Shown here: positions 3,251 through 33,711 of the stretch, one piece after another
How the letters are laid out: every line of letters begins with the position of its first letter
Position numbering within the stretch: position 1 is the first letter of the stretch
Assembly: GCA_937862935.1 (NCBI GenBank)
Contig: CALMEO010000044.1
Coordinates: 1 to 61,602, forward strand
Direction of reading: 5' to 3'
Source: an uncultured bacterium
GTDB taxonomy: Bacteria; Patescibacteriota; Gracilibacteria; Absconditabacterales; Absconditicoccaceae
Length of the DNA stretch: 61,602 nt
Position numbers and translations under genes: made by a program
Notes under the pieces: model-generated
Seen by the model: only the letters and a program-made list of their open reading frames with translations
Databases searched by the model: none
What the model was told of the DNA's origin: nothing

Positions 3251-3958
3251 ATGTTTGTGTATATGACAATATGTTTAGTAAATGGTAAAAAATACATTGG
3301 TAAATACGAAGGAAAAGAGACTGATAAGTATCTAGGATCTGGAAAATTAATAAAACGAGCTATACAGAAGTACGGAGTACATAATTTTGAAAGGGTAATA
3401 TTGGAAAGGTTCAACAATGTAGAGGACTGTAGAACAGGTGAGAAACTTTGGATTTCCAGATTTAATGCTACATCTGCAAAAGATTTTTACAATATAGCAT
3501 CAGGTGGAGAAGGAGGAAATACTTTTGCGGGAATAGTTGGGGAAGAAAGAATTCAACTAATAGCAAAGTTAAGGCAGAGAAAAAGACCAAAAAAGAAATT
3601 AGGAACACTCCTATGTTTAGATTTACAGAACAAAAAGAGAGTAAGGGTAACATTGGAAGAATTTTACAACAATAATATGTTATTAGGAAATAGTTGTAAA
3701 GGAATCTACATTACTCCTAAGGGTATATTCTCTTCAGCAAAAGTAGCTTCAAAGTACCATAACAATCTAGATTATACAAGTTTATCAAGAAGGTGTAAGT
3801 TTTCTAACAAAAAAGTTACAAAGTCTCACATTTCATGTGATAATAGATTTAATTCTTCAGATTTGGGGAAAACATTTAAGGAATTAGGGTATGGATTTAT
3901 CAGTATAGAAAAGGTAACAGTAGGGTTTTTAAAAATGAATAAAGTAATTAAATCATGA
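3251..3958 (+). CDS. GIY-YIG homing endonuclease
   Basis: This free-standing 235-residue endonuclease has the GIY-YIG core near the N-terminus (VYMTICLVNGKKYIGKYEG, here a YMT/YIG variant), then YLGSGKLIKRAIQKYG and the FERVILERF strand. The GEKLWISRFNA region supplies the usual Glu helix. The C-terminal half is basic and probably recognises DNA. It lies between the small-gene operon and queD, overlapping the queD start by four bases. The upstream CTATTTATC motif at 3232 matches the element seen before the other homing genes. Confidence 0.8.
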   Translation: MFVYMTICLVNGKKYIGKYEGKETDKYLGSGKLIKRAIQKYGVHNFERVILERFNNVEDCRTGEKLWISRFNATSAKDFYNIASGGEGGNTFAGIVGEERIQLIAKLRQRKRPKKKLGTLLCLDLQNKKRVRVTLEEFYNNNMLLGNSCKGIYITPKGIFSSAKVASKYHNNLDYTSLSRRCKFSNKKVTKSHISCDNRFNSSDLGKTFKELGYGFISIEKVTVGFLKMNKVIKS

Positions 3959-5274: not shown

Positions 5275-6027
5275 ATGAATTATCAAAAAATTTACGACCA
5301 AATAATTGATCGAGCAAAAAATAGGGTATTGGAAGGATATTTAGAAGAGCATCACATTATTCCAAAGTGTTTGGGAGGAAGTAACGATAAAAGTAATTTG
5401 GTAAAGTTAACAGCAAGGGAGCATTTTATTTGTCATTTTTTATTAGTTAACATATATCCAAACGAAACAAAGTTGCAATATGCTTTCTGGTTGATGTGTA
5501 ATATAAAAAACCCACACCAATCTGATAGGTACATTCCTTCATCAAGGTTGTATGAATATGGTAAACAGCTTCATTCGAATAACATGAAACGAAGAAAAGG
5601 AATCAAGCAAGGACCTAGAACACAAGAGACAAGAGAAAAAATATCTAACAGTAAAAAAGGAAAATCAGTACCTAAGACACAAGAATGGAAAGATAACAGG
5701 TCTAAGGCTATGAAAAAAGCATACGAGGATGGAACACGAGTTTCTAACAAAGGTAAACAAATGCCTGAATGGTTTGGTGCTAGAATTTCTAGATCAAAGA
5801 AAGGGATGATAGGTACTAATTTGGGGATTCCAATGAAAGAGGAACAGAAACAGAAAATATCCCAAACACTAAAAGGGCACCTAGTTTCCGACGATACACG
5901 TAGTAAGATCTCTCAGACTTTGAGAAATAAACCTGAGGTTACTTGTCCACATTGTAAAAAGACCAGTAGGGGTTCTGCTTTTTCTTTTTACCATTTCGAT
6001 AAATGTAAAAAGAATTTAAATAAATAA
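5275..6027 (+). CDS. HNH homing endonuclease with NUMOD repeats and zinc finger
   Basis: This 250-residue free-standing endonuclease starts with an HNH nuclease core (EEHHIIPKCLGGSNDKSNLVKL, with TAREHFICH). It continues with Lys/Ser-rich NUMOD3-type DNA-binding repeats (TREKISNSKKGKS, EEQKQKISQTLKGH) and ends with a CPHC...H...C zinc finger. Its first 60 residues closely resemble those of the HNH protein at 32812, so the two are recent paralogues. It is inserted between the 2H phosphoesterase and queE genes. Confidence 0.85.
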   Translation: MNYQKIYDQIIDRAKNRVLEGYLEEHHIIPKCLGGSNDKSNLVKLTAREHFICHFLLVNIYPNETKLQYAFWLMCNIKNPHQSDRYIPSSRLYEYGKQLHSNNMKRRKGIKQGPRTQETREKISNSKKGKSVPKTQEWKDNRSKAMKKAYEDGTRVSNKGKQMPEWFGARISRSKKGMIGTNLGIPMKEEQKQKISQTLKGHLVSDDTRSKISQTLRNKPEVTCPHCKKTSRGSAFSFYHFDKCKKNLNK

Positions 6028-6029
6028 AA

Positions 6030-6803
6030 ATGAAAAGAATAACAGATTACAACAAGGTATTACCTATTAACGAACTGTACACAGCAGTCCAAGCTGAAGG
6101 GAGTAGAGCAGGATATGCCACAATAGTAGTGCGAACTGTGGGATGTACTCACCGCTGCTGGTTCGGTGAGGGAGGCTGGTGCGATGCTTGGGCAAACTCA
6201 ATCCACCCAGAAAAAGGTAAATACACTTTCCAAGACATTATTAACATATACGACCTAAACCCTCACATTAAAGAGATGATGTTAACAGGTGGATCACCGA
6301 CAATGCACCCAGCTTTAGTAAACGAACTAACACATTTTGCACATGAAAGAGGAATTTTTATTACTATGGAAACAGAGGGATCACATTTCTTGGAAACAGA
6401 CTTTCCGATTAATTTACTTAGCATTTCTCCTAAGTTTTCTAACTCTATTCCACACACAGGTATCAGTACTCCAGCCGGTGATATCGTTGATGAGAAGATG
6501 GTTAAACAACATAATAAGTTTAGATTAAATTACGATGCAATGTCCAAGTCTATTGTTTACCATTCAAACTACCATTTAAAACCGGTATGGGATGGAGAAG
6601 ATCAGGAGGCATTGAGTGAAATTCTAAATTGTATTAGGGTATTAGATGTACCTCAAGATAAGGTATATTTTATGCCAGCTGGAGATACAAGAGAAGCATT
6701 GCTTAACTCCTATCCAAAAGTAATGAATTGGATAAGAGATAATGGATACAAATTTACAGGAAGACCGCATATTATTGCGTTTGACGATCAGAGGGAGGTT
6801 TAG
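6030..6803 (+). CDS. queE: QueE, 7-carboxy-7-deazaguanine synthase (radical SAM)
   Basis: QueE converts 6-carboxy-tetrahydropterin to 7-carboxy-7-deazaguanine with S-adenosylmethionine and a 4Fe-4S cluster. The N-terminus (NELYTAVQAEGSRAGYATIVVRTVGC) and the glycine-rich MLTGGSPTMHP segment are typical. The cluster cysteines are Cys39, Cys43 and Cys51, that is C-x3-C-x7-C with WFGEGGW between the last two, instead of the common CxxxCxxC. At 257 residues it is slightly longer than many homologues. It starts three bases after the preceding HNH stop. Confidence 0.87.
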   Translation: MKRITDYNKVLPINELYTAVQAEGSRAGYATIVVRTVGCTHRCWFGEGGWCDAWANSIHPEKGKYTFQDIINIYDLNPHIKEMMLTGGSPTMHPALVNELTHFAHERGIFITMETEGSHFLETDFPINLLSISPKFSNSIPHTGISTPAGDIVDEKMVKQHNKFRLNYDAMSKSIVYHSNYHLKPVWDGEDQEALSEILNCIRVLDVPQDKVYFMPAGDTREALLNSYPKVMNWIRDNGYKFTGRPHIIAFDDQREV

Positions 6804-6824
6804 TTTATGCCTTATGGTTTATGC

Positions 6825-6848
6825 ATACTATTTATAATAAAACAGTAT
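6825..6848 (+). promoter_or_regulatory. Start-proximal hairpin with TTTATAATA loop
   Basis: ATACT at 6825-6829 pairs with AGTAT at 6844-6848 around a 14-base loop containing ATTTATAATA. The ATG at 6850 follows after one base. The arms differ from those at 5248 but the loop is conserved. Confidence 0.5.
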
Positions 6849-6849
6849 T

Positions 6850-7356
6850 ATGGACTATAGAGGAATTTGGAGAAAACATTACGGAGAAATACCTAAAGAC
6901 AAGAACGGATGGACTTATGAGATACACCATGTAGATGGGAATAGAAATAATAATACTATTCAAAACTTAATATGTGTTTCAATAGAAGAACATTATAATA
7001 TACACCTTATGCAGGGAGACATAGCTGAGGCAAGTGCTATTGCTGCTAGGATGAAAAAGTTACAAGAAGGTGTAATATTTGAGACATGGGTTCTTACAGG
7101 AAGTAAATGGTTTCACAAAGAAGGTAAACAACGTCAAATGAAAGTAGATGACCCTAGAATCGTGGAAGAAGGTTGGACATTGGGAATGAAACCGGAGACA
7201 GTAGATAAAATACGAAAAACATCCCATAAAGCTGTAAAATCTCCTTTAAAAGACCCGGAAGCTAGATCAAGGAAAACATCAGAAAGTTTAAAGAAAGCCT
7301 ACGCAGAAGGAAGGCGTAAACAAAGAAAACCATATAAGAACACTAAAATAGAATAA
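6850..7356 (+). CDS. HNH homing endonuclease
   Basis: This 168-residue protein carries an HNH core (YEIHHVDGNRNNNTIQNLICVSIEEHYNIH) after the MDYRGIWRKHYGEIP start seen in many phage HNH enzymes. The C-terminal 60 residues are basic and NUMOD-like (TVDKIRKTSHKAVKSP). It is shorter than the other HNH genes here and lacks the C-terminal zinc finger. It lies between queE and a small gene pair and is independent of both. Confidence 0.82.
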   Translation: MDYRGIWRKHYGEIPKDKNGWTYEIHHVDGNRNNNTIQNLICVSIEEHYNIHLMQGDIAEASAIAARMKKLQEGVIFETWVLTGSKWFHKEGKQRQMKVDDPRIVEEGWTLGMKPETVDKIRKTSHKAVKSPLKDPEARSRKTSESLKKAYAEGRRKQRKPYKNTKIE

Positions 7357-7363
7357 AAGAAAG

Positions 7364-7759
7364 ATGCGTTTAAGTTTAGAAAATACGTTTGTACTTGATC
7401 TCGATTTCGAGAGAGGTAAACGATACGGAGGTAGAGATACACGTAAAGAGTTGGATGAGAGTTTTGAAAGATTTTTTAACATTATGGGAAAAGACCCGGA
7501 TAAGCTTATTACGTTAATGGACACAGCTGTTAATAAAGAGGTAAAGAAGCGTATGTTGCTTACTCTTGTAGAAACGGAATTAACCGGTTCAGATGAAACA
7601 CATTTTAAACCACTAACATCGGAAGATGTAGACAATTTAGAGAAAGAAAATGGTAGCAGAAGCAACAACGTTCGAAACACTGAGAGTTCTTCACAACCTG
7701 TGGAAGGGTTCGTACATGGAAACGAGCCAAGTAAAAAAGGTACTGAAGGAGCATCTTAA
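7364..7759 (+). CDS. Hypothetical protein, 131 aa
   Basis: Residues 1-95 look like a normal charged helical protein. The last 35 residues (from GSRSNNV) are low-complexity and lie in a 110-base overlap with the next gene, so they read like a shadow of that gene. A frameshift joining the two, or a longer than usual overlap, is possible. No family is recognised. Confidence 0.55.
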   Translation: MRLSLENTFVLDLDFERGKRYGGRDTRKELDESFERFFNIMGKDPDKLITLMDTAVNKEVKKRMLLTLVETELTGSDETHFKPLTSEDVDNLEKENGSRSNNVRNTESSSQPVEGFVHGNEPSKKGTEGAS

Positions 7760-7838
7760 CTTAGAATTAACAGTTTTAGCAAACGGAGAAATTAAAGCAG
7801 AATCCTCAGATGGAAAAACCAAGTATTCAATTAAATAA
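7650..7838 (+). CDS. Hypothetical protein, 62 aa
   Basis: A small protein with a helical N-terminal half and a beta-hairpin-like end (LANGEIKAESSDGKTKYSI). It is in the +1 frame relative to the gene it overlaps, and an in-frame TAG at 7638 sets its 5' limit. The A-rich context before ATG 7650 supports initiation. Confidence 0.55.
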   Translation: MVAEATTFETLRVLHNLWKGSYMETSQVKKVLKEHLNLELTVLANGEIKAESSDGKTKYSIK

Positions 7839-7849
7839 AAAATAAAGTT

Positions 7850-8146
7850 ATGACATTAAAAGATTTAATCGATTTAGCAGGAGAAAGAGATTTAGCAAAA
7901 TCGTATCCAAAAGCAGATGGAGTATATGTATGGGACTACAAAGTACTACCTAATAAAGCAACTAATGTAACTGAACTGCACTTAATACCGAGTGATTCCG
8001 GTAAAGCAGGGTTCAAAGACAAAGTATCTATCGACGAATTAGTAAATTACGTACTAGAAGAAACAGACCCAGAAGTATCAGGAGACGAAATTATCTCACA
8101 ACTGCAAGTAGTAGGTGCGGAAGGAATCACAATAGCGAAAATTTAA
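7850..8146 (+). CDS. Hypothetical protein, 98 aa
   Basis: An acidic soluble protein of mixed alpha/beta character. No family is recognised. Its stop overlaps the start of the phosphoribosyltransferase gene (TTTAATGG), so the two are coupled and may act together. Confidence 0.65.
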   Translation: MTLKDLIDLAGERDLAKSYPKADGVYVWDYKVLPNKATNVTELHLIPSDSGKAGFKDKVSIDELVNYVLEETDPEVSGDEIISQLQVVGAEGITIAKI

Positions 8147-8541
8147 TGGCACTAAAGGTAGGAAATAAAATGTATCTAAGCTGGGATGATATAAATATCC
8201 TAGTAGAAGATCTTTGCAATACAATCGCATCTTCAGGAGCACACATTACGTCTATTACAGGAATAAAAAGAGGAGGACTAATACCAGCAGTAATGATCTC
8301 TCATAAATTAAACATACCTTACGTAGACAGAATTAATAAAGATACTTTGGTTGTGGATGATATTTGCGATACGGGAGAGACGTTAAAAAATAGTATAGCA
8401 CTGTATACTGCAACACTTCATTACAAGCCAACAGCAGGATTTACTCCTGACTTCTATGCAAAAGAAGTAGGATCAGACTGGATTGTATATCCATGGGAAA
8501 GAAAAGATTCAGATGCTATTCAAGATTATTTAAAAAAATAG
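8146..8541 (+). CDS. Phosphoribosyltransferase-like protein
   Basis: This 131-residue type I PRTase-like protein has ITGIKRGGLIPAVMISHKL near residue 40 and the PRPP-binding loop LVVDDICDTGETL near residue 66, with paired acidic residues and DTGET as in xanthine/hypoxanthine PRTases. It is shorter than typical enzymes (about 150-180), mostly for lack of an N-terminal hood. Lying between queE and folE, it may attach ribose phosphate to a 7-deazaguanine base or recycle purines; both are inference. Confidence 0.78.
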   Translation: MALKVGNKMYLSWDDINILVEDLCNTIASSGAHITSITGIKRGGLIPAVMISHKLNIPYVDRINKDTLVVDDICDTGETLKNSIALYTATLHYKPTAGFTPDFYAKEVGSDWIVYPWERKDSDAIQDYLKK

Positions 8542-8593
8542 TTGTTTTTAGTATATTTACCTATTTATAATAAATAAAAAATTTATAGAAGGA

Positions 8594-9325
8594 ATGATAG
8601 GTATTTATAAGATTACGAATCCGAAAGGTAGAATATACGTAGGACAGTCTATTGATATAGAAAAAAGATTTAACCAGTATAAACAATTAACTCATTGTAA
8701 ATCTCAAAAGAAACTATACAATTCGTTAAAGAAGTATGGAATATCTGAGCATGTATTTGAAGTATTGGAAGAATGTAGCTTAAAAGAGCTGAACAGAAGA
8801 GAAAGGTATTGGCAGGAGTATTTTAATGTATTACACGAAGGCCTAAACCTATTACTAACAAGCACAGAACAAGTTAGAACAGTTTTTTCCGAAGAAACCA
8901 GGAGAAAAATCTCAGAATCACTAAAAGGAAATACACCTTGGAATAAGGGTAGGCAAATGCCTCAAGATACTAAGAATAAGATTTCGGAGAAATTAAAAGG
9001 AAGAAAACTTTCTGAAGACACAAAAGAAAAGCGAAGAGGGAATAAGCAGTCTCAAGAGACAATCAATAAAAGAGTATCTTCTAGAAGGAATAACAGCAGT
9101 ATATGGCATTCAGAAGAGACATTAGAAAAGATGAAAGGTCCGCGAAAACCTTATGGACCTCAAATAAATCCTCAAAAAAGTAAGACCGAAGAACATAAAG
9201 AGAAGTTAAGAGGACCTAGAGGTACTAGAGGTCCGCAACAAAAAGTAAAATGTCCGTATTGCCTAAAAGAAGGAGGAAATACCATGTCACGTTGGCATTT
9301 TGAAAACTGTAAACAGAAGTTGTAA
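8594..9325 (+). CDS. GIY-YIG homing endonuclease with NUMOD3 repeats and zinc finger
   Basis: The protein opens with MIGIYKITNPKGRIYVGQS, an exact GIY...YVG core, followed by the KYGISEHVFEVLEEC strand and the ELNRRERYWQEYF helix with catalytic Glu. NUMOD3 motifs (TRRKISESLKGNTPWNKG, TKNKISEKLKG) and a C-terminal CPYC...H...C finger form the DNA-binding half. It is closely related to the gene at 25564. A CTATTTATAATA motif at 8561 precedes it. It is inserted between the PRTase and folE genes. Confidence 0.88.
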   Translation: MIGIYKITNPKGRIYVGQSIDIEKRFNQYKQLTHCKSQKKLYNSLKKYGISEHVFEVLEECSLKELNRRERYWQEYFNVLHEGLNLLLTSTEQVRTVFSEETRRKISESLKGNTPWNKGRQMPQDTKNKISEKLKGRKLSEDTKEKRRGNKQSQETINKRVSSRRNNSSIWHSEETLEKMKGPRKPYGPQINPQKSKTEEHKEKLRGPRGTRGPQQKVKCPYCLKEGGNTMSRWHFENCKQKL

Positions 9326-9351
9326 ATGAAGAATTAAATTCATATATTTTA
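9320..9351 (+). promoter_or_regulatory. Promoter, TATATTTTA variant
   Basis: TTG 9320-9322, a 20-base spacer, then TATATTTTA at 9343-9351. The TTG lies in the last codons of the upstream homing gene. It would give folE its own leader of about 60 bases. Confidence 0.55.
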
Positions 9352-9415
9352 ATAATAATAAGTACTGATTAATAACAGCAAAAGAGAGTCGAAGAACCTC
9401 GTAAAAAAACAAAGT

Positions 9416-10129
9416 ATGAATACTCAAAAAAAATTTATATCCGGAACTGAACTTGTACAAGCCGGATTCGCAAATGGTATCTCAACACAATTAGCTAAGA
9501 AGCAATTAATAGACGGACCAGAAGCAAGATTAACTGAAGTAGAAAAGCAACATATTATTGAAGATGCTGCTGAAGCATTTGGACAATTCCTATCAGCTTT
9601 AGGATGTGATTGGAAGAATGATCCAAATTCATCTGATACTCCTAAAAGAGTTGCAAAGGCTTATGTAAATGATTTATGGGCCGGACGATTTGAACCAATG
9701 ACTAAAATTACAGCATTCCCTTCTGATGGATATGATGGAATTGTATTTGAAGGAAACATTCCAATTACGTCAATGTGTTCTCATCATCACCAAACAATTA
9801 CAGGAAGAGTTCATATTGGATATGTTCCTTCCTCAGATGGAAAAGTAGTTGGTCTTTCAAAATTAAACAGAATTGTAGAGCAATTTGCAAGAAGAGGTGC
9901 TATCCAGGAACAATTAACAGTTGCCATTCACAATGCAGTGGATAAAATCTGTGAAGGTAATCTAGGAGTAGCAGTTATGATTGAAGCAGGTCATAATTGT
10001 GTAAGCTGTAGAGGAATTAAGCATCAAGGTGCTTCTATGAAGACAGCAAAATTAACAGGATGTTTTTTAGATGAAGCATCAGCAAGAGCAGAATTTTACG
10101 AATTTGTAAAAGGGTATAGTTGTAAATAA
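9416..10129 (+). CDS. folE: GTP cyclohydrolase I (FolE)
   Basis: FolE opens GTP to dihydroneopterin triphosphate, the first step of both folate and 7-deazaguanine synthesis. The 237-residue protein has the zinc site Cys121, His124 and Cys195 (SMCSHHHQTITG and GHNCVSCRGI), the substrate loop SDTPKRVAKAY near 73 and GLSKLNRIVEQFARR near 146. Length and order are as in bacterial type IA enzymes, with an extra 35-residue N-terminus. With QueD and QueE it forms the route to 7-carboxy-7-deazaguanine. Confidence 0.95.
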   Translation: MNTQKKFISGTELVQAGFANGISTQLAKKQLIDGPEARLTEVEKQHIIEDAAEAFGQFLSALGCDWKNDPNSSDTPKRVAKAYVNDLWAGRFEPMTKITAFPSDGYDGIVFEGNIPITSMCSHHHQTITGRVHIGYVPSSDGKVVGLSKLNRIVEQFARRGAIQEQLTVAIHNAVDKICEGNLGVAVMIEAGHNCVSCRGIKHQGASMKTAKLTGCFLDEASARAEFYEFVKGYSCK

Positions 10130-10141
10130 AAAACAAACAGT

Positions 10142-10339
10142 ATGAAATATTGGACAGTCACAGTACAATTGGAACATGAAAGCGATACAGGTCGTGTTCA
10201 GAGAACAAGAGAACTCTACTTGGTAGATGCAGTTTCAGCTTCAGATGCAGAAGCAAAAATTTACAAAGAGTTTGAAGGTGAATCAAACTTTACGGTAATA
10301 GGAGCAGTACAATCTAAAATTATCAAAGTAATTGAGTAA
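10142..10339 (+). CDS. Hypothetical protein, 65 aa
   Basis: A small beta-rich protein (YWTVTVQLEHESDTGRVQ, LYLVDAVSASDAEAKIYKEF). The pattern of two strands, a helix starting SASDAEAK and another strand is common in small phage proteins, but no family is named here. It lies between folE and a terminator. Confidence 0.65.
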   Translation: MKYWTVTVQLEHESDTGRVQRTRELYLVDAVSASDAEAKIYKEFEGESNFTVIGAVQSKIIKVIE

Positions 10340-10343
10340 AGAG

Positions 10344-10367
10344 TTGGACCTTCGGGTCCAATTTCTT
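10344..10367 (+). terminator. Rho-independent terminator, overlaps promoter
   Basis: A perfect 7-bp stem TTGGACC/GGTCCAA closes a TTCG tetraloop at 10344-10361 and is followed by TTTCTT. The first TTG doubles as the -33 element of the next promoter. Confidence 0.8.
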
Positions 10368-10375
10368 ATATTAAG
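10344..10375 (+). promoter_or_regulatory. Promoter, TATATTAAG variant
   Basis: TTG 10344-10346, 20 bases, TATATTAAG 10367-10375. It drives the MazG-like/DpdA-like operon from 10388. Confidence 0.65.
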
Positions 10376-10387
10376 AAAAAGCAAATT

Positions 10388-11047
10388 ATGACCTTAATAG
10401 AGAAACAACAAGAATTAATCGATCTACTGTCTGATCAAATTACACAACTAACCCTACTTTCTAAAATAGAACTGGGTGACGATGTGATAAAAGAAGTCGT
10501 TAGACTTAAAGAAGAAATCCAAATCTTAAAATCAACTTCCGTACATTTTGTCGATGAGGTAGAGGAATTTAACCACCTAATGGGTAAACCGAACAACTAT
10601 GAACCAATCATCCCCGAAAGAAAAGAATGGGAGTTTGTATACAATTTCGTCCTTGAAGAACTTGAGGAATATAGAGAAGCTTGCGAAAAAGGAGACATCG
10701 TGGAAGTTCTGGATGCTTTGTGCGATATTGCTTATGTTGCCACTGGGAACGGTACTATGTTACATGGCCTTAAGAGTAAGATATGGCCGGCATATCAAGA
10801 AGTACAAGCTTCAAATTTGTCGAAAGCTTGTAAAACTGAAGAAGAAGCAATCGCAACTGTCGAGAAGAGAAGTATCGAACAAGGTGAAGCATGTCACTAT
10901 GAAAAAGTTGGAGAAATGTTCATCGTCTACAGAACAAGAGATAGAAAAGTAATGAAAAATACCAATTACTTTAAACCTAACTTACATCAGTTCTTTTCTG
11001 AGAAGGAAATTCAAAAAGTGCACTTAATGCAGTTAACAGGGAAGTAA
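10388..11047 (+). CDS. MazG-like nucleotide pyrophosphohydrolase
   Basis: The 219-residue protein has a helical N-terminus and a MazG/all-alpha NTP-PPase core near residues 78-125. The motif ELEEYREACEKGDIVEVLDALCDIAYV carries the ExxE...ExxD acidic residues that bind magnesium. Members hydrolyse (d)NTPs to monophosphates. Placed immediately before the DpdA-like gene, it may clear competing nucleotides or process a deazaguanine nucleotide; that role is inferred. The C-terminal 60 residues (RSIEQGEACHYEKVGEMFIVYRT) form an extra small domain. Confidence 0.72.
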   Translation: MTLIEKQQELIDLLSDQITQLTLLSKIELGDDVIKEVVRLKEEIQILKSTSVHFVDEVEEFNHLMGKPNNYEPIIPERKEWEFVYNFVLEELEEYREACEKGDIVEVLDALCDIAYVATGNGTMLHGLKSKIWPAYQEVQASNLSKACKTEEEAIATVEKRSIEQGEACHYEKVGEMFIVYRTRDRKVMKNTNYFKPNLHQFFSEKEIQKVHLMQLTGK

Positions 11048-11262
11048 TGCAAGAAGCTTTAGATCATATTGAAAAGCATAAAGTTTATATCGAAAGTTTA
11101 GGAACTTTTATGATTCCGGTAACAGAGGCATTTAAAGTTGTTGAACTTTCGTATAACTCTCAATTAGAAGAAGCTCTTGCACTAATCCAAGGGACTTTTA
11201 CAGAAACAGAACAAGAAATCCAAAATTTAGAAGATGATAAAGATAGCTCACGAGAGTCCTAA
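11047..11262 (+). CDS. Hypothetical protein, 71 aa
   Basis: A small, probably all-helical acidic protein. Its start overlaps the MazG-like stop (TAATG) and its end overlaps the DpdA-like gene by 29 bases, so it is translated with both. No family is recognised. Confidence 0.6.
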   Translation: MQEALDHIEKHKVYIESLGTFMIPVTEAFKVVELSYNSQLEEALALIQGTFTETEQEIQNLEDDKDSSRES

Positions 11263-12028
11263 GTCAATATTTGACAAAGTACAAGCAGTAACTGATTACG
11301 ATTATGCTTTGGTACATTTATTTGAAGAAGATCCAGAATATCTAGCTTTGTTTAGACAAGCTAAGGAAAGTGGAAGAGAAATAATTTTAGATAACTCAAT
11401 CTTTGAGTTGGAAGAAGCCTTTGATGCAGAAAAATTTGCAGGATGGGTACTAGATTTACAACCAGATTGGTATATTGTACCGGATGCATTAGAAGATGCT
11501 AAAAAGACTTGCAATCAGATGGCAGAATGGAACATAAAGTTCAAGAATCTACCAGGTAAAAAGATTGGAGTAGTTCAAGGGAAAACATATCATCAAATCA
11601 AAACATGTTACGAATACATGGATAAGATTGCAGGTGTAGATATGATTGCAATATCCTTTGATTACTCATATTACACGCATTCTTTTTCACATCCTAATAA
11701 ATATGTATCGTGGATGTTAGGACGCGTTAAGCTCTTAGGAGATTTAGTGAGAGATGGTGTTATAAATACTTCTAAGCCTCATCACTTGTTAGGTTGTTCG
11801 TTACCTCAAGAATTTGCATTTTATTCAAACTATGATTGGATTTATTCTTTAGACACTTCCAACCCTGTAGTACATGGTATTAAAGGAGTTGAGTATAGAG
11901 AAGATGGGTTATGGTCAAAAGAGTCACAAAAACTATTTGAATTAATCAACCATGATGTTACAGATGTGAATACAATTCTGTACAACATTCACAAATTTAG
12001 ATGGTTTACAAATGGCTCAAAAGTATAA
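11234..12028 (+). CDS. DpdA/TGT-like 7-deazaguanine DNA transglycosylase (candidate)
   Basis: This 264-residue TIM-barrel-like protein resembles phage DpdA proteins, paralogues of tRNA-guanine transglycosylase that swap guanine in DNA for a 7-deazaguanine. Visible elements are ALVHLFEEDPEY near 25, IILDNSIFEL near 50 (Asp53 is a candidate active-site residue), WYIVPDALEDAKKTCNQMAEW near 79, GVVQGKTYHQIKTCYEY and HHLLGCSLPQEF. Classical TGT zinc ligands are not obvious, as expected for short phage forms. Its company with folE, queD, queE and queF is strong support. Family is likely; the base inserted is unknown. Confidence 0.72.
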   Translation: MIKIAHESPKSIFDKVQAVTDYDYALVHLFEEDPEYLALFRQAKESGREIILDNSIFELEEAFDAEKFAGWVLDLQPDWYIVPDALEDAKKTCNQMAEWNIKFKNLPGKKIGVVQGKTYHQIKTCYEYMDKIAGVDMIAISFDYSYYTHSFSHPNKYVSWMLGRVKLLGDLVRDGVINTSKPHHLLGCSLPQEFAFYSNYDWIYSLDTSNPVVHGIKGVEYREDGLWSKESQKLFELINHDVTDVNTILYNIHKFRWFTNGSKV

Positions 12029-15131: not shown

Positions 15132-15896
15132 ATGGACTATCGAAAGCATTACAACAGTCTTGTAGAAAGAGCAAGAAAAAGGGAAAAAGATCCTGGGACA
15201 TACTGCGAGTTGCACCATATTTTGATGAAATCGGAAGGGGGTACAAACGAAGAATCCAACCTGGTTTGGTTGTCAGCTAGAGAACATTTTGTAGCACATT
15301 GGTTACTATTCAGGGAGAAACCTGAGAGTTACGTTAGAGCTGAAGCTTTTAGGATGATGTGTGATGTAGATCCCAGTTTAGATAAATTAAGGTACATTCC
15401 AAGTGGGAGAGTCGTTGCAGAAGCAAGAGAAGCCTCAGCAAGGCTCAAGTCGGAACTGTACAAGAAAAAATGTTGGGTGAAAAAAGACGGAACCCATAAG
15501 AACATCTTCAGAGAAGAACTTGAGATTTATCTGGAACTAGGGTGGGAAAGAGGGAAAAATTATTCTCATTCTCCTGAAACAAGGGAAAAACTCAGACAAT
15601 CTAGGTTAAATGAAGCTCCTAGAGGACCTCAATTTTACCAGAAGATGTCTCAGATAGTGAAGGAAAGGTATAAAAACAATCCGGAAAGTTGGAAAAAATC
15701 TAAAGAGACAAGAAAAAAACTTTCCGGACTATCCAAACAAAAATGGGAGTCTGAAGAGTTTAGAGCTAGGTTTAGGGAAACCAGAAGTAAAAGTCGAGTT
15801 AAATGTCCACATTGTGTAAAAGAGGGTAACTTTAATATAATGCAAAGGTGGCACTTTGACAACTGTAAACATAATCCACAGAAAAATGAAAAATAG
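15132..15896 (+). CDS. HNH homing endonuclease with zinc finger
   Basis: This 254-residue enzyme has an HNH core (CELHHILMKSEGGTNEESNLVWLSAREHFVAHWLL) and an arginine/lysine-rich NUMOD-like middle (SPETREKLRQSRLNEAPRGPQ). A C-terminal CPHCVKEGNFN...WHFDNC finger is shared with the other homing proteins here. It is inserted between queF and a nuclease-like gene and overlaps the latter by 11 bases. Confidence 0.85.
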   Translation: MDYRKHYNSLVERARKREKDPGTYCELHHILMKSEGGTNEESNLVWLSAREHFVAHWLLFREKPESYVRAEAFRMMCDVDPSLDKLRYIPSGRVVAEAREASARLKSELYKKKCWVKKDGTHKNIFREELEIYLELGWERGKNYSHSPETREKLRQSRLNEAPRGPQFYQKMSQIVKERYKNNPESWKKSKETRKKLSGLSKQKWESEEFRARFRETRSKSRVKCPHCVKEGNFNIMQRWHFDNCKHNPQKNEK

Positions 15897-18761: not shown

Positions 18762-18788
18762 TTACACCTATTTATACGAAAGGTGTAA
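18762..18788 (+). promoter_or_regulatory. Perfect 7-bp hairpin with TATTTATA loop at HNH start
   Basis: TTACACC (18762-18768) pairs perfectly with GGTGTAA (18782-18788) around TATTTATACGAAA. The A of the HNH start codon is the last paired base, so the start would be occluded in RNA that includes both arms. Confidence 0.6.
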
Positions 18789-19504
18789 TGAATTACGAAA
18801 AAATTTACAATCACATTGTTGAATCCTCAAAGGGGAAAAATAGGAAAAGGGGAAAGCAAGAGTATTTTGAAAATCACCACATAACCCCAAGGTGTATGGG
18901 AGGTTCTAATGAAAAGGAAAACCTTGTTCTGCTGACAGCAAAAGAGCATTTTTTATGTCACCGACTTCTTTGTGAAATATATCCGGAGACGAAAGAGTTA
19001 CAATTTGCATTTTGGGCAATGTGTAATCAAAGAGGTAAGAAAGGGCAGAGAACCTACACAGTAAGTGCACGTACGTATGAGAGAATGAAAGAAAGGGTGT
19101 CTGAAATGAGGAGAAAACGTAAAACCATACCCTGTAGAGGGTGTAAGAAAGGGTTCGAAAGAATCTACTCTTGGATTAGGGAGAAGAATTACTGCAGTAG
19201 AGAATGTTATATCAGTTCAAACGGAGTTACAGTAGGGGAAGTGCACATTTATAAAGGAGCACTTCGAAAATTTATCCCGAAAAGCAAACTGAACAGGTAC
19301 ATAACTAAGGGATGGACTGAAGGAAGACTTTTTTTACAAAAACCTGTTCAAAGATGTGATATGTTTGGAAATATCCTACAAGAGTACGGTTCTGTTAAAG
19401 AAGCAACCAGGTCAGGAGAATTTGGTGTGACAGGTATCAGTCAGTGTGCTAACGGTAAAAGAAAGACTCATAAAGGATATGTTTGGAAATATCGGCAGTT
19501 GTAA
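18788..19504 (+). CDS. HNH homing endonuclease with two zinc-binding modules
   Basis: This 238-residue protein begins with the HNH core (FENHHITPRCMGGSNEKENLVLLTAKEHFLCHRLL). A treble-clef-like finger follows (CRGCKKGFERIYSWIREKNYCSRECY, near residues 117-142). The end (RCDMFGNILQEYGSVKEATRSGEFGVTGISQCANGKRKTHKGYVW) is a NUMOD1-type helix-turn-helix. It sits between DNA polymerase and groES. Confidence 0.85.
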   Translation: MNYEKIYNHIVESSKGKNRKRGKQEYFENHHITPRCMGGSNEKENLVLLTAKEHFLCHRLLCEIYPETKELQFAFWAMCNQRGKKGQRTYTVSARTYERMKERVSEMRRKRKTIPCRGCKKGFERIYSWIREKNYCSRECYISSNGVTVGEVHIYKGALRKFIPKSKLNRYITKGWTEGRLFLQKPVQRCDMFGNILQEYGSVKEATRSGEFGVTGISQCANGKRKTHKGYVWKYRQL

Positions 19505-25474: not shown

Positions 25475-25563
25475 ACTTGCCCTACCGAGAAAAACATTAC
25501 GGAGATTTTAGATACTTTCCCATGGGCAAGATGGGTGTATCTAATTTCTCCTTTCTTTTTAAT

Positions 25564-26253
25564 ATGATAGTGGGGATTTATAAAATTACAAGTCCAAAAG
25601 GTCGAGTATACATTGGGCAAAGTTCAAATGTTCTACACAGGTGGGAAACCTACAAGAAAGTACTATGTAAAGGTCAACCGAGGTTATATATGTCTTTAGT
25701 AAAGTACGGAATTGAAAACCACAACTTCGAAGTACTTGAGGAGTGTACAAAGGAACAGTTAAACGAAAGAGAACGTTATTGGCAAGAATTTTACGATGTA
25801 ATTGGAAGAAACGGACTAAACTGTAAATTAACAAAAACAGAAGATAAGTCAGGTACATGTTCAGAACAGGTAAAAGAGAAGATTTCAATTACAATGAAAA
25901 AAATGGGATATCGTCCCCCTTCTAGAGAAGGGGTACAGGGTTACTGGAAAGGTAAAACAAAACCTGTAGAAGCTAACTTGAAAACTTCAGTAAAACTTAA
26001 AGGGATTATTCGAGGACCTAAATCTGAAGAGTCGAAAAGTTTACAACGACAGTCTATGTCGGAGAAAGTACCTTGGAACAAAGGTAAAAAGTATACACAA
26101 ACTAACCAAAGAAAAGGTAGAAAAATCATTAACATACTAACCGGTATAGTCTATGATTCTATTAAACAAGCTTCACTTGTAGAGCAGGTTTCAAGAGATA
26201 CTGTCACGTACAGTTGTAAAAAGTTACAAAGTCCATTTAAGTACTATGCTTGA
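25564..26253 (+). CDS. GIY-YIG homing endonuclease
   Basis: Starting at ATG 25564 the protein reads MIVGIYKITSPKGRVYIGQS, a full GIY-YIG core. The helix QLNERERYWQEFYD carries the catalytic Glu, and NUMOD3 repeats and a NUMOD1-like HTH end follow (GIVYDSIKQASLVEQVSRDTVTYSC). The frame is open upstream to TTG 25477; those 29 residues (PYREKHYGDFRYF) resemble the N-terminus of HNH enzymes such as the one at 6850, perhaps a relic. It is inserted after the T9SS mini-protein. Confidence 0.85.
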   Translation: MIVGIYKITSPKGRVYIGQSSNVLHRWETYKKVLCKGQPRLYMSLVKYGIENHNFEVLEECTKEQLNERERYWQEFYDVIGRNGLNCKLTKTEDKSGTCSEQVKEKISITMKKMGYRPPSREGVQGYWKGKTKPVEANLKTSVKLKGIIRGPKSEESKSLQRQSMSEKVPWNKGKKYTQTNQRKGRKIINILTGIVYDSIKQASLVEQVSRDTVTYSCKKLQSPFKYYA

Positions 26254-27567: not shown

Positions 27568-29072
27568 ATGTCGAACAATAAAAGTTACGAAACAAAATTT
27601 CGTCACCTTAAGCGAGAGGATAGAAAGAAAATCTTGCTTTTGTGTGACGATATTTGATGCTCCCCCTGGAGAAATCTAGGGGGAGGAAAGCAATCAGAAT
27701 GCACAGCGGTATTGCAACAATGGCTAGAGAAATAGTTATTGGAACAGCACATCACTTTAACTGGTTAAATGTTGGTGCTGCAATTAATCACCCAGATAAT
27801 GGAAAGGGTTTTGACCTATCTAACGATATAAATGTATTAACAGGTTTGGAAGATTCTTGGGTAAGAGTAATAGGTAGTAATGGTTATGGAGATGCAAACC
27901 TGATTAGAGGTTTGATGAAACAGGAGAAACCGGATGCAATCTTTATCTTTACAGACCCTAGGTATTGGGTATGGTTATTTGAATTGGAAAGAGAGATTAG
28001 AAATCAAATCCCAATTTATTATTTAAACATTTGGGATGATCTTCCAACTCCATTATACAATAAACCATACTATGAATCCTGTGATCTGTTAATGGCTATT
28101 TCAAAACAAACTAAAAACATTAATGAGATAGTCTTAGGTGAAGAAGCTAAAAACAAAATCATTAAATATGTTCCTCACGGAATAAATGAAAATCATTTCT
28201 TTCCTATCAGAGAAGGACATGAGAACTTTGAACTGTTAAAAGAGTTTAAAAGTAAGATGTTTGGAGGAAAAGATATTGAATTTGTTGTACTTTTTAATTC
28301 AAGAAACATTAGAAGAAAATCACCTGGGGATGTAATACTATCTTACAAACTCTTCTGTGATAAAATTGGAAAAGAAGCTTCTAAAAAATGTGCATTAGTA
28401 ATGCATACACAAGCTGTAGATGATAATGGAACAGATCTGTATGCAGTTAGAGAAGCTCTTTGTGATGAAAGTTACATAAATGTATTCTTCTCACAAGATA
28501 AACTGGAAACTCCACAAATGAACCTGTTATGTAACATAGCGGATGTAGGTTTACTCATTACTTCAAATGAAGGATGGGGATTATCCCTAACTGAAACCAT
28601 GATGAGTGGTAGAATGATCATTGCAAATGTTACAGGAGGAATGCAAGACCAAATGAGATTTGAAGGTAATGATGGAAAATGGATTGACTTTACTCCGGAT
28701 TTTCCTTCTAACCATAGGGGAACTTTCAAGAAATGTGGTAAATGGGCAATACCAGTATTCCCTTCTAACCTATCTTTAGTAGGTTCACCATCTACTCCGT
28801 ATATTTTTGACGATAGATGTAGTCCTGAAGATGTTGCTGATGCAATAAACGAAGTTTATCACATGGACAAAGAAGAGAGAGAAAGAAGAGGTTTACTAGC
28901 TAGAGAATGGGTAACTTCAAATGAATCAGGAATGTCAGCAAGACAAATGTGTGAAAACATTATTGAATCAATGGACGAAGCATTTGAAAAATTTGTTCCA
29001 AGACCGAGATTTGAATTACACAAGATCACAGATAGACCTAAAAAACGTTTAACACATAAATTACAATATTGA
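27568..29072 (+). CDS. GT-B glycosyltransferase interrupted by candidate translational bypass
   Basis: Frame 1 runs from ATG 27568 for 29 codons (ending KKILLLCDDI), then meets TGA at 27655. The protein resumes in another frame at 27696 with RMHSGIATMAREIVIG and continues to 29072. Joining across 27655-27695 gives about 487 residues. The body has GT4-type features: SNEGWGLSLTETMMSGRMII near the C-terminus (E-x7-E) and VPHGINENHFF at the domain junction. LLLCDDI-RMHSG makes a natural first strand and glycine loop, so both parts belong to one gene. Initiation at TTG 27654 or ATG 27657 would give a protein lacking the first strand. It probably transfers a sugar in virion, DNA or host glycan modification. 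Confidence 0.78.
27655..27695 (+). other. 41-nt coding gap with hairpin, candidate bypass element
   Basis: The segment starts with TGA directly after an ATT codon and ends with an ATC codon, both read by one Ile tRNA. Inside, CTCCCCCT (27660-27667) pairs perfectly with AGGGGGAG (27678-27685) around a 10-base loop. The GGGGGAGG stretch lies several bases before the landing codon. A stop after take-off, a hairpin and an SD-like site before landing are the parts known from T4 gene 60. The net shift of 41 nt excludes simple readthrough. Confidence 0.55.
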
Positions 29073-29932: not shown

Positions 29933-30457
29933 ATGGAGAATAAGATTAGTTGCGTTATTTCAGCACCGGTGGATACGTACAGTGGGTACGGTGCTCGAAG
30001 CAGAGACCTGATAAAAACTATCATAGAAACTAGACCAGATTGGAACATTACAATATTGTCCCAAAGGTGGGGAAATACACGATTCGGTTACCTGGAAGAC
30101 CATAATGAAACAGGCTTACAATCGAGAATTATAACAAACTTAACATTTCAACCTGATGTGTGGATTCAGGTCACGATTCCTTCAGAATTCCAAAAAGTAG
30201 GTAAATACGCAATCGGAGTAACAGCAGGAATTGAAACAACACTTTGTGATGCTTCTTGGATACAGGGATGTAATAATATGGATTTAGTTCTAGTTTCATC
30301 TCAACATGCTAAAAAAGTTTTCACTGAAAGTAAGTATAACGTAACAGATAACAGAACAGGACAAGTAACAAGTTACATAGAGTTAAAAACTAAAATGGAA
30401 GTGTTATTCGAAGGAGTTGACACTACTAAGTACTGTAAAATAGATTGGGAGGATTAA
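29933..30457 (+). CDS. GT-B glycosyltransferase, N-terminal half
   Basis: The 174 residues form one Rossmann-like domain: CVISAPVDTYSGYGARSRDL, the NITILSQRWG strand, ALT-type VTAGIETTLC and DLVLVSSQHAKKVF. The half ends VLFEGVDTTKYCKIDWED, exactly where a GT-B enzyme passes to its C-terminal domain. A TAA follows. The missing half is encoded at 30537 in a different frame. Joined, the product would be about 435 residues, a normal GT4 length. Confidence 0.75.
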   Translation: MENKISCVISAPVDTYSGYGARSRDLIKTIIETRPDWNITILSQRWGNTRFGYLEDHNETGLQSRIITNLTFQPDVWIQVTIPSEFQKVGKYAIGVTAGIETTLCDASWIQGCNNMDLVLVSSQHAKKVFTESKYNVTDNRTGQVTSYIELKTKMEVLFEGVDTTKYCKIDWED

Positions 30458-30551
30458 AAACGTAGGTCATTGGGTTTCGGACTCAGAACCACCTATGAGA
30501 AGAATAGGTGGAAAAATTAAGAAATAAACGAATATTATGAAAAAAACAGAT
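30455..30551 (+). other. 97-nt gap with perfect hairpin between glycosyltransferase halves
   Basis: The gap opens with TAA after a GAT codon (30452-30454) and closes with a GAT codon (30549-30551). CCACCTAT (30489-30496) pairs perfectly with ATAGGTGG (30504-30511) around a 7-base loop. The identical codons at both ends would suit peptidyl-tRNA hopping. An ATG at 30537 with A-rich context would instead allow separate translation of the second half. Confidence 0.45.
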
Positions 30552-31337
30552 TCAAAAATTTATCAGGACCTACTAAAAATACCGGAAGATTTTTTATTTC
30601 TCGTAGTTGGACATTGGCTTCCAGGTGATATGGGAGAAGATAGGAAGAATATTGGATTCACAATCAAAGCATTCTTAGAAACATTTAAGAATAGACCAGT
30701 AAATAAACGTCCTGCATTATTACTTAAGGTGCAAGCTGGAGCTGGAACATCTATTATGGACCGTGAATTATTGTTAGATAAGATTGATGCAATAAGGAAA
30801 ACTGTAAAAGGTGACTTACCGAATGTATATGTACTTCACGGTGACATGACTGATACAGAGGTCAACGAGTTATACAATAGTCCTAAAGTAAAAGCAATGG
30901 TATCTCTTACAAAAGGGGAAGGATTTGGAAGACCTTTACTGGAATTTAGTCTAATAAACAAACCAATCATTGCAAGTGCTTGGTCAGGACATGTAGATTT
31001 CTTAGATAAAGAATTTGTTACATTTGTAGGGGGTACACTTACACCTGTACACCCGTCAGCAGCTGTTGATAGAATGATACTAAGGGAAAGTTTATGGTTT
31101 ACACCAGATTCAAATGAAGTAGGAAGAGCATTTAAGAATGTTTATGACAACTATGATAAACTTATAGGGAATGCAAAAAGACAGGGACATAAGTCAAGAA
31201 CTAACTACTCTTATGAAAATATGAGAGACTTAGTAAAAACATTGTTAGACTCAAACATACCAGAGTTTCCAACCCAAGTTCAATTGAAATTACCTCAATT
31301 GAAGAAAATTGAATTACCAAAACTAAAAAAAGTATAA
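30537..31337 (+). CDS. GT-B glycosyltransferase, C-terminal (nucleotide-sugar) half
   Basis: This part has FLVVGHWLPGDMGEDRKN near residue 22, the GT4 donor-site signature KGEGFGRPLLEFSLINKPIIAS near 127 with the E-x7-E pair, and a C-terminal helix. The tail (LPQLKKIELPKLKK) is a short repeat. It lacks an acceptor domain and should need the upstream half. The start chosen is the only ATG in frame before the conserved region. Confidence 0.75.
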   Translation: MKKTDSKIYQDLLKIPEDFLFLVVGHWLPGDMGEDRKNIGFTIKAFLETFKNRPVNKRPALLLKVQAGAGTSIMDRELLLDKIDAIRKTVKGDLPNVYVLHGDMTDTEVNELYNSPKVKAMVSLTKGEGFGRPLLEFSLINKPIIASAWSGHVDFLDKEFVTFVGGTLTPVHPSAAVDRMILRESLWFTPDSNEVGRAFKNVYDNYDKLIGNAKRQGHKSRTNYSYENMRDLVKTLLDSNIPEFPTQVQLKLPQLKKIELPKLKKV

Positions 31338-32186: not shown

Positions 32187-32834
32187 TTAAGTTATGCAAT
32201 TACAGTAAAAGATGAACTGGAAGAAGTCACGAGATTAATTGAGTTTTTAATTAAGCATAAACGTACAGAAGATGAAATCATCATACTATTTGACACAGGA
32301 GGAAGTGTAGATGTTCATGTATATCTAGATTCGATAGATCATGAAGATATTTTCATAATACAAGACCAGTTTAAAGGAAACTTTGCTGATTGGAAAAATT
32401 TATTAACATCGTATTGTACTGGAGATTACATTTTTCAGATTGATGCTGATGAATACCCGGATGAAGTCCTTGTCCTAACTTTACCTGAAATTTTAGAACT
32501 AACCGGTGAAGTAGATATTATTCTGGTTCCAAGAGTTAATACAGTAAAGGGTATTACCGAAGCTCATATAAAAAAGTGGGGATGGATTATGAACGATAAA
32601 GGTTGGGTTAATTTTCCCGATTTTCAGTGGAGAATCTACAAAAATAGTCCTTATATTAAGTGGAAAAATAAAGTTCACGAAGTGTTAACAGGGTATAAAA
32701 GTTATGCAACATTACCAGAAAGACAAGAGTATTCACTTTATCATCCAAAAACAATTGATAGACAGGAAAAGCAAAATAGCAGCTATTTATTGTTACAGAA
32801 AGAACGTAACAATGAACTATCAAAAAATTTATGA
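32181..32834 (+). CDS. GT2-like glycosyltransferase, 217 aa
   Basis: A GT-A fold is indicated by the MKLSYAITVKDELEEVTRLIEFL start, the DTGGS loop and the acidic YIFQIDADEYPDE metal motif near residue 90. WRIYKNSPYIKWKNKVHEVL is the usual acceptor-side segment of such enzymes. The last 18 residues (after RQEKQN) are encoded by sequence that belongs to the inserted HNH element, which overlaps by 23 bases. Confidence 0.8.
   Translation: MKLSYAITVKDELEEVTRLIEFLIKHKRTEDEIIILFDTGGSVDVHVYLDSIDHEDIFIIQDQFKGNFADWKNLLTSYCTGDYIFQIDADEYPDEVLVLTLPEILELTGEVDIILVPRVNTVKGITEAHIKKWGWIMNDKGWVNFPDFQWRIYKNSPYIKWKNKVHEVLTGYKSYATLPERQEYSLYHPKTIDRQEKQNSSYLLLQKERNNELSKNL
32790..32812 (+). promoter_or_regulatory. 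Perfect 7-bp hairpin at HNH start
   Basis: TTGTTAC (32790-32796) pairs with GTAACAA (32806-32812), ending on the A of the HNH start codon. CTATTTAT (32783-32790) immediately precedes the 5' arm. Confidence 0.55.
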
Positions 32835-33711
32835 TCAAATAATTGATCGAGCACAAAAAGAAAATAGAAGGAAAAGTAAAGAAGTTTATTTCGAAAGACA
32901 TCATATTATTCCGAAATGTTTGGGAGGAAGTAACGAAAAGTCAAACTTAGTTTTACTAACTGCAAGGGAACATTTTTTATGTCATTGGATACTATATAGG
33001 TTACATCCTACTAATTCGAAACTACTTTTTGCATTTAAGATGATGTGTGATGTACAAAATAGGGAAAGAATGAACAGATTTGTTCCTTCTTCAAGAATTG
33101 TAGCTGAAGCTAGAGAAGCTTTTAGTACACTAATTAGAACTCTTCCGAAAACTGAAGAAACTAAACAGAAAATTTCAAAAGCAAATTTAGGTAGGATTTG
33201 GACAGAAGAAGCTAGAAAAAATCACAAAGAAGGGGTAAAAGGGTGTAAAAAGCCTACAAGAACACCGGAACATCTATCAAAGATATCAGAAGCACTAAAA
33301 GGAAAGAAAAAAAAGCCCTTTTCTGAAGAACATAAACGTAAGATTTCGGAAACACTTAGTAAAAAGCAAAAAACATCTGTACACTTACTTAGAATTTCAG
33401 AAGCATTGAAAGGAAGGGAACTAACCGAAGAAACTAAACAAAAAATTAGAGAGAAAAATACAGGTAAAAAACACACCGAAGAAACTAAACAAAAAATGAG
33501 AGAGAAAAATACAGGTAAAAAACACACCGAAGAAACTAAACAAAAAATGAAACATCCAAAACCTGTTGGATTTGGAGAAAAAGTAAGACAAAGAAATCTA
33601 GATAGGGGCAAACTTGGACCATTACAAAGATTACAGTGTCCACATTGTAATGTGGAGATGTCGATAAACAACATATACAGGTTTCATTTTGATAATTGTA
33701 AAAATAAGTAA
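32812..33711 (+). CDS. HNH homing endonuclease with expanded NUMOD3 repeats
   Basis: The 299-residue protein has the same first 60 residues as the enzyme at 5275 (MNYQKIYDQIIDRA, then HHIIPKCLGGSN). It has seven or more NUMOD3-like units and a CPHC...FHFDNC finger. The start at 32812 matches the paralogue and sits at a hairpin end. A 51-bp tandem duplication lengthens the DNA-binding region. It interrupts the glycosyltransferase cluster. Confidence 0.88.
   Translation: MNYQKIYDQIIDRAQKENRRKSKEVYFERHHIIPKCLGGSNEKSNLVLLTAREHFLCHWILYRLHPTNSKLLFAFKMMCDVQNRERMNRFVPSSRIVAEAREAFSTLIRTLPKTEETKQKISKANLGRIWTEEARKNHKEGVKGCKKPTRTPEHLSKISEALKGKKKKPFSEEHKRKISETLSKKQKTSVHLLRISEALKGRELTEETKQKIREKNTGKKHTEETKQKMREKNTGKKHTEETKQKMKHPKPVGFGEKVRQRNLDRGKLGPLQRLQCPHCNVEMSINNIYRFHFDNCKNK
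33430..33550 (+). repeat. 51-bp tandem repeat within the HNH gene
   Basis: Units 33430-33480 and 33481-33531 differ at one base, and a third partial unit follows. Each encodes 17 residues (ETKQK[I/M]REKNTGKKHTE), one NUMOD3 unit, so the copy number changed recently. Confidence 0.85.

Follow-up and report, generated by a model that had tools for sequence, protein, structure and literature searches.

Natural translational bypasses regarded as established are those of gene 60 in phage T4 and of the byp inserts in yeast mitochondria, to which a few unverified candidates can be added, and counterparts have long been presumed to exist (PMC5009743). T4 gene 39/60 was split by insertion of an endonuclease, and the 50-nt gap may have protected against the nuclease (PMC5009743, PMC2988022). 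The stem-loops of T4 are credited with pushing the ribosome forward by refolding in its wake as it slides (PMC11194080, PMC5009743). For high-processivity bypassing in T4 a limit of 56 nt has been reported (PMC11194080), and the gaps described below are shorter. In the mitochondria of Magnusiomyces capitatus 81 bypassed byp inserts occur, which are short and considered mobile (PMC5009743, PMC4592705), and a 29-nt hop has been reported, without follow-up, for an adhesin gene of Prevotella loescheii (PMC5009743). The mob and seg genes of T-even phages encode free-standing GIY-YIG or HNH nucleases with a separate DNA-binding C-terminal part, lie intergenically beside their targets and undergo co-conversion with them (PMC2988022). 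Our search of the literature on other phage bypasses yielded none of the kind considered here.

The locus studied here lies in a 61.6-kb stretch of DNA (the window), for which a first-pass annotation had proposed a bypass within a glycosyltransferase gene. Our comparison of homologous sequences leads to the same reading: this GT-B glycosyltransferase gene of Immutovirus-like phages is very probably interrupted by a cassette for programmed translational bypassing like that of T4 gene 60. All parts of the gene are on the plus strand. Its 5' coding part (27568–27654) consists of 29 codons, MSNNKSYETKFRHLKREDRKKILLLCDDI, the last of which is the take-off codon ATT at 27652–27654. It is followed by a non-coding gap of 41 nt (27655–27695; TGATGCTCCCCCTGGAGAAATCTAGGGGGAGGAAAGCAATC) that starts with TGA at 27655 and ends with the landing codon ATC at 27693–27695. 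The 3' coding part (27696–29072) opens with AGA27696, comprises 458 codons and a stop, matches Pfam Glycos_transf_1 and continues the family sequence with RMHSGIATMAREIV in a frame that differs from that of the 5' part. Translation thus confirmed what the annotation had described, namely a frame from ATG27568 to CDDI that runs into TGA, a gap of 41 nt and the return of the family sequence at 27696 in another frame.

In comparison with the immuto phage, 22 of 24 conserved genes of the window are single unbroken matches, and the only broken ones are the interrupted glycosyltransferase gene and the glycosyltransferase gene next to it. Hence the contig is not error-ridden, and from the same matches we assign the window to a phage of the Flavobacterium type that is a relative of Immutovirus. 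Orthologues in the immuto phage also exist for a set of queuosine/7-deazaguanine DNA-modification genes at 6030–12028 (QueE, FolE, DpdA-like), and sixteen dispersed copies of a repeat (family D1, GTTGGTA...TATCTTTAG) between 25035 and 60848 resemble phage promoters of the Bacteroidota type. The phage contig has probably been misbinned: TGA terminates several window genes, but a trmD-like gene of the bin (G000 contig C19:299–330, L348) carries this codon twice in frame at a glycine motif, as in lineages in which TGA encodes glycine. The trmD-like gene also contains an in-frame CCCCCTTGACAAAGGGGG palindrome.

The two sides of the gap are contiguous in homologues, as the annotation had expected. 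In 79 of 80 viral contigs that encode the downstream protein, the sequence ...DD(I/L/M)-R... is unbroken, and the gene of the Flavobacterium immuto phage likewise reads through the CDDI-RMHSG junction. Homologues lacking the first 29 residues would have spoken for another reading; instead, the first 29 codons carry family sequence, and the 5' part of the window gene matches residues 4–23 of the immuto glycosyltransferase at 85%. The one interrupted homologue among the 80 (L096, also named L076 but a single locus) and three more genes found by a pattern scan (L083, L102 and L116) bring the interrupted genes to five, all broken at the same codon junction (Ile-Arg). Related inserts at an identical junction in four further contigs show that the gap is neither a product of chance nor an error.

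The inserts are related to each other but differ in sequence and length. Those of the window and L083 (TGATGGCCCCCTTGAGGAAACTTAAGGGGGAAAAGTAAATC) measure 41 nt, that of L102 (GGCTGCCCCCTCAGGGAAACTTGAGGGGGAAATGTAAATT) 40 nt, and those of L116 (TAATGCCCCCCTTGGAGCTATTCAAGGGGGAAAAGAATC) and L096 (ATT|GTTTGCCCCCTCAGGGAAACTTGAGGGGGAATGTAAATC|AGAATG) 39 nt. Since all three frame classes are represented, neither one frameshift nor one readthrough of a stop would suit all five genes. The geometry is common to all: ATT, 5–6 nt, a stem of 10–11 bp with a tetraloop, 6–8 nt, ATY and AGAATG. The take-off codon is invariably ATT, and the landing codon is ATC in four copies and ATT in one, so that both can be read by one tRNA in each gene; the synonymous Ile codon at the end of the gap, pointed out previously for the window, therefore extends to the entire set. 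Immediately behind the take-off codon the window has a stop as claimed (TGA), and so do L083 (TGA) and L116 (TAA), but this is not a constant feature, as GTT or GGC takes its place in L096 and L102. Contiguity in the homologues, together with the occurrence of three insert lengths (39, 40 and 41 nt) at a single codon junction, supports the bypass reading at the level of sequence.

Five copies are known in total. Among the matches listed for a hairpin-only pattern in the viral contigs, only four glycosyltransferase copies resembled gene inserts by eye, and neither patterns with any landing codon or with GACAT as take-off nor a hairpin-plus-landing pattern revealed a sixth copy. No copy was found in the species genome contigs or in isolated phages. 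A covariance model of the element, run against 86 loci and 24 whole records, returned the known copies and weak matches only, and the strongest of the latter, on bin contig C19, turned out to be a different C5/G5 palindrome in the trmD-like gene.

Within the gap a hairpin is predicted at 27660–27685, with an 11-bp stem (CUCCCCCUGGA / UCUAGGGGGAG) and a GAAA tetraloop (fold z = -4.2). The annotation had noted a perfect 8-bp G/C hairpin, which exists but is longer, as the stem extends to 11 bp including one G-U pair; the GGGGGAGG stretch that it placed ahead of the landing site is also there, but most of it belongs to the 3' arm of this hairpin. No other G+C-rich perfect inverted repeat of at least 8 bp with a loop of at most 20 occurs in the window. 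A stem of 10–11 bp with a tetraloop, mostly GAAA, is found in all five copies, and over the four distinct sequences its 10 pairs are 100% paired with 4 of them changed on both sides, while slid controls gave no double-changed pairs.

A second structure, not part of the earlier description, is predicted upstream of the gap. It is a long 5' stem-loop inside the coding sequence of the window gene that reaches up to the take-off codon (27595–27655; MFE -21.1, z = -6.7 against synonymous shuffles), with a lower stem (27600–27606 with 27644–27650), an upper stem (27610–27617 with 27632–27639) and a base (27595–27598 with 27652–27655). For the last 60 coding nucleotides including the take-off codon, the five element-bearing genes yielded MFE values of -19.5 to -26.7, with z-scores from -6.1 to -11.0 relative to shuffles of synonymous codons; these genes occupy ranks 1–5 of 84 for predicted 5' folding, and the same 60 nt of intact genes gave a mean MFE of -8.5 (z = -1.25) and a best value of -16.0. 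The lower stem (columns 6–12 with 50–56) is complete in all five genes, double changes occur at columns 8-54 (G-C to A-U), 17-46 and 18-45, and the base of the predicted fold includes the take-off codon in the window, L116 and L102. T4 gene 60 folded likewise into a 5' stem-loop followed by the take-off hairpin, and the long coding stem-loop described here is the predicted counterpart of T4's 5' stem-loop. As the 5' region of T4 gene 60 reached a z-score of only -0.7 in the synonymous-shuffle test, the z-scores are suggestive and do not represent a validated marker of bypassing. Folding of the sequence after the landing site in search of a conserved 3' stem-loop gave inconsistent results across the five copies.

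Hairpins close to both ends of the insert might also point to its removal from the mRNA, either as a tiny intron or by enzymatic excision and ligation, in which case the ribosome would not skip anything. Such a process would be equally independent of frame and length, but we regard it as unlikely: 39–41 nt is far below the size of any known self-splicing intron, Rfam returned no family match at gathering thresholds, the predicted folds fail to join both ends as a bulge-helix-bulge, and no bacterial machinery for such a reaction is known. Excision would also leave the constant Ile landing codon after an Ile take-off codon unaccounted for. An RtcB ligase was not found in the bin, which is probably not the host of the phage.

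The surroundings of the gene, which the first-pass annotation had not covered, also speak for the bypass reading. Directly upstream of the interrupted gene, L083, L096 and L102 each carry a free-standing homing endonuclease gene; L116 and the window lack it and still contain the insert. None of the 79 uninterrupted genes has such an endonuclease gene directly upstream. This association (3 of the 4 other copies versus 0 of 79) corresponds to a Fisher p = 4e-5 without the window and 1e-4 with it; both values are approximate, since some loci are near-copies of one another and a few offer little sequence upstream of the gene. Judged by eye from their motifs, the endonucleases have a GIY-YIG-like N-terminus in L096 and L102 and an HNH-like one in L083, and Pfam detected NUMOD3 only. 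A C-terminal region of some 100 residues, ending with EG(S/A)ANNMSRYHFxNCK, is common to the three proteins. A collection-wide search with an alignment of this region recovered the three endonucleases at 52–100% identity, all at interrupted genes, and other matches were weaker along most of its length. Five of the next-ranked loci were read; they had other neighbours, and no hairpin insert was noticed in their flanks.

When a tree was built from the protein encoded by the 3' part, each of the five elements fell on a branch of its own; this requires five changes, of which well-supported branches force three, so that the tree supports the separation in part. Because the genes are thus separated, the element would either move or be repeatedly lost. 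L096 and L102 are free of synonymous differences over the last 20 codons ahead of the insert and differ by 0.65 per site elsewhere in the gene, and three other element-bearing pairs differ by 0.35 in these 20 codons and by 0.63–0.80 in the rest. A low synonymous difference before the insert would fit co-conversion and equally a constraint on the 5' stem-loop. Overall, these observations suggest that the five copies probably belong to a horizontally spreading family of bypass cassettes outside T4, made up of a 39–41 nt insert, a coding stem-loop and a GIY-YIG- or HNH-like endonuclease, which invades one conserved codon junction of the glycosyltransferase gene and whose gap length may fall in any frame.

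Many further free-standing GIY-YIG-like and HNH-like endonuclease genes are spread over about 30 kb of the window (3251–3958, 5275–6027, 6850–7356, 8594–9325, 15132–15896, 18788–19504, 25477–26253 and 32797–33702), and the corresponding stretch of the immuto relative has no annotation of them. The endonuclease encoded at 8594–9325 ends with a zinc-finger-like C-terminal sequence, NTMSRWHFENCKQK, common to the bypass-associated endonucleases, and lies upstream of a GTP cyclohydrolase gene that is itself uninterrupted. The next glycosyltransferase gene of the window (29933–31337) is split into two frames, 29933–30457 and 30537–31337. At the matching place, L005 (4903–6943) harbors a free-standing HNH-like endonuclease gene (5478–6131), of whose 3' end the window retains a remnant at 30486–30527 (EPPMRRIGGKIKK versus EPPMQRIGGKLKK in L005). 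As read from these sequences, this is a gene into which an endonuclease was inserted and later deleted, leaving it split as in T4 39/60.

The endonuclease association and the disrupted reading frames would also agree with an insert that serves as protection from the homing endonuclease only, so that the glycosyltransferase would be inactivated and a pseudogene in the making. This is very unlikely in view of the state of the gene, as both parts are open and constrained in five separate lineages. The 3' part is open over 457–462 codons without stops in all five genes, its pN/pS of 0.17–0.30, comparable to that of intact pairs, indicates purifying selection, and it retains 172–192 of 196 residues that are invariant among ten intact homologues. 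The 5' part keeps its frame and the family sequence including the DDI end in all five, and by these measures both coding parts look constrained. Moreover, a dying gene would not be expected to preserve covariation in the gap hairpin or to retain a coding stem-loop beside the gap.

The predicted structure of one uninterrupted homologue (mean pLDDT 83) matches GT-B proteins, among them MshA and PimB', and places the first beta strand at residues 17–22 and the junction at 26/27, beside the invariant residues D24, D25 and R27. This bears on a shortened glycosyltransferase made by a fresh start at ATG27699 (RMHSG) or within the gap, for which the 29-codon part would be a leader peptide. In each of the five copies the landing codon and AGA are succeeded by an ATG, a purine-rich GGGGGA lies slightly more than 12 nt upstream of it, and the window alone offers a frame with an ATG start from 27657. 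However, the in-gap start at 27654 or 27657, named as a rival from the outset, would work in the window alone: it runs into TAA in L083 and is out of frame in L116, the sole ATG of L096 has TAA as its next codon, and L102 has no ATG with an open in-frame continuation. As the strand precedes the junction, a protein that starts after the gap would, according to the model, lack the first beta strand as well as the invariant DD, and the family sequence is preserved in the 5' part up to the DDI at its end. We therefore consider a fresh start highly improbable. Errors in sequencing or assembly, or a genetic code in which TGA specifies an amino acid, might be suspected for a metagenome-derived contig whose bin stems from a bacterium that may use another code, but are next to impossible given the related yet distinct inserts of five independent contigs, the otherwise intact window genes, TGA at the end of 6 of 29 checked window genes, and a gap that stays in the wrong frame if TGA is recoded to sense and contains TAA in L116.

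A programmed bypass would probably run as follows. After translation of the first 25–29 codons, the ribosome would stall on AUU and peptidyl-tRNA-Ile would detach from this codon. The ribosome would then slide across the gap, with the 5' stem-loop refolding behind it, until the same tRNA re-pairs at AUC or AUU and translation goes on from AGA to the full-length enzyme. The insert may split the site at which the upstream endonuclease is presumed to cut, so that insert-free alleles would be cleaved. Endonuclease and insert would thereby co-spread by homing, with bypassing as the means that renders the insert harmless, and in the window and L116 the endonuclease gene would be gone and the insert left behind.

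Compared with described systems, the Magnusiomyces capitatus byps, likened here by description, are mitochondrial, occur in many genes per genome, have relaxed codon matching and are seemingly independent of mRNA context, whereas the elements reported here reside at one site in one gene family with strong flanking structure. The Prevotella loescheii hop shares the Bacteroidota setting and the short distance proposed, but no endonuclease or homologous element is known for it. T-even mob and seg genes are alike in arrangement; here, however, one C-terminal domain occurs with both nuclease types and is linked to an insert of the bypass type. The closest resemblance is to T4 gene 60, the 50-nt bypass in a topoisomerase gene. 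In both cases the gap is located early in the coding frame, a tetraloop hairpin is combined with a 5' stem-loop, and an endonuclease gene lies just upstream (mobA in T4, three of the five copies here). In T4 the take-off and landing codons are identical (GGA/GGA), and here they are the cognate Ile codons AUU/AUC or AUU/AUU. The stop after take-off in T4 has its equivalent in three of the five copies. The T4 hairpin pairs over the take-off codon and has a UUCG loop, whereas the hairpin here starts 5–6 nt after that codon and mostly has GAAA, and the 5' stem-loop is much longer than in T4. A nascent-peptide signal is essential for bypassing in T4; here none is obvious, and there is no dedicated signal to point to in the first 25–29 residues, which are ordinary family sequence. 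Gene, phage lineage and host phylum are different, the gap spans 39–41 nt in all three frames, and several related copies exist with two nuclease types; an informal comparison revealed no sequence kinship between T4 gene 60 and these inserts. If the proposed reading is true, it would add a second phage bypass in another gene and host phylum, with several natural variants for comparison. The stop after take-off, the frame and a known peptide signal are features of T4 that do not consistently recur, whereas cognate codons, hairpin, 5' stem-loop and endonuclease do recur, and the copies make both the bypass mechanism and the origin from a selfish element directly testable.
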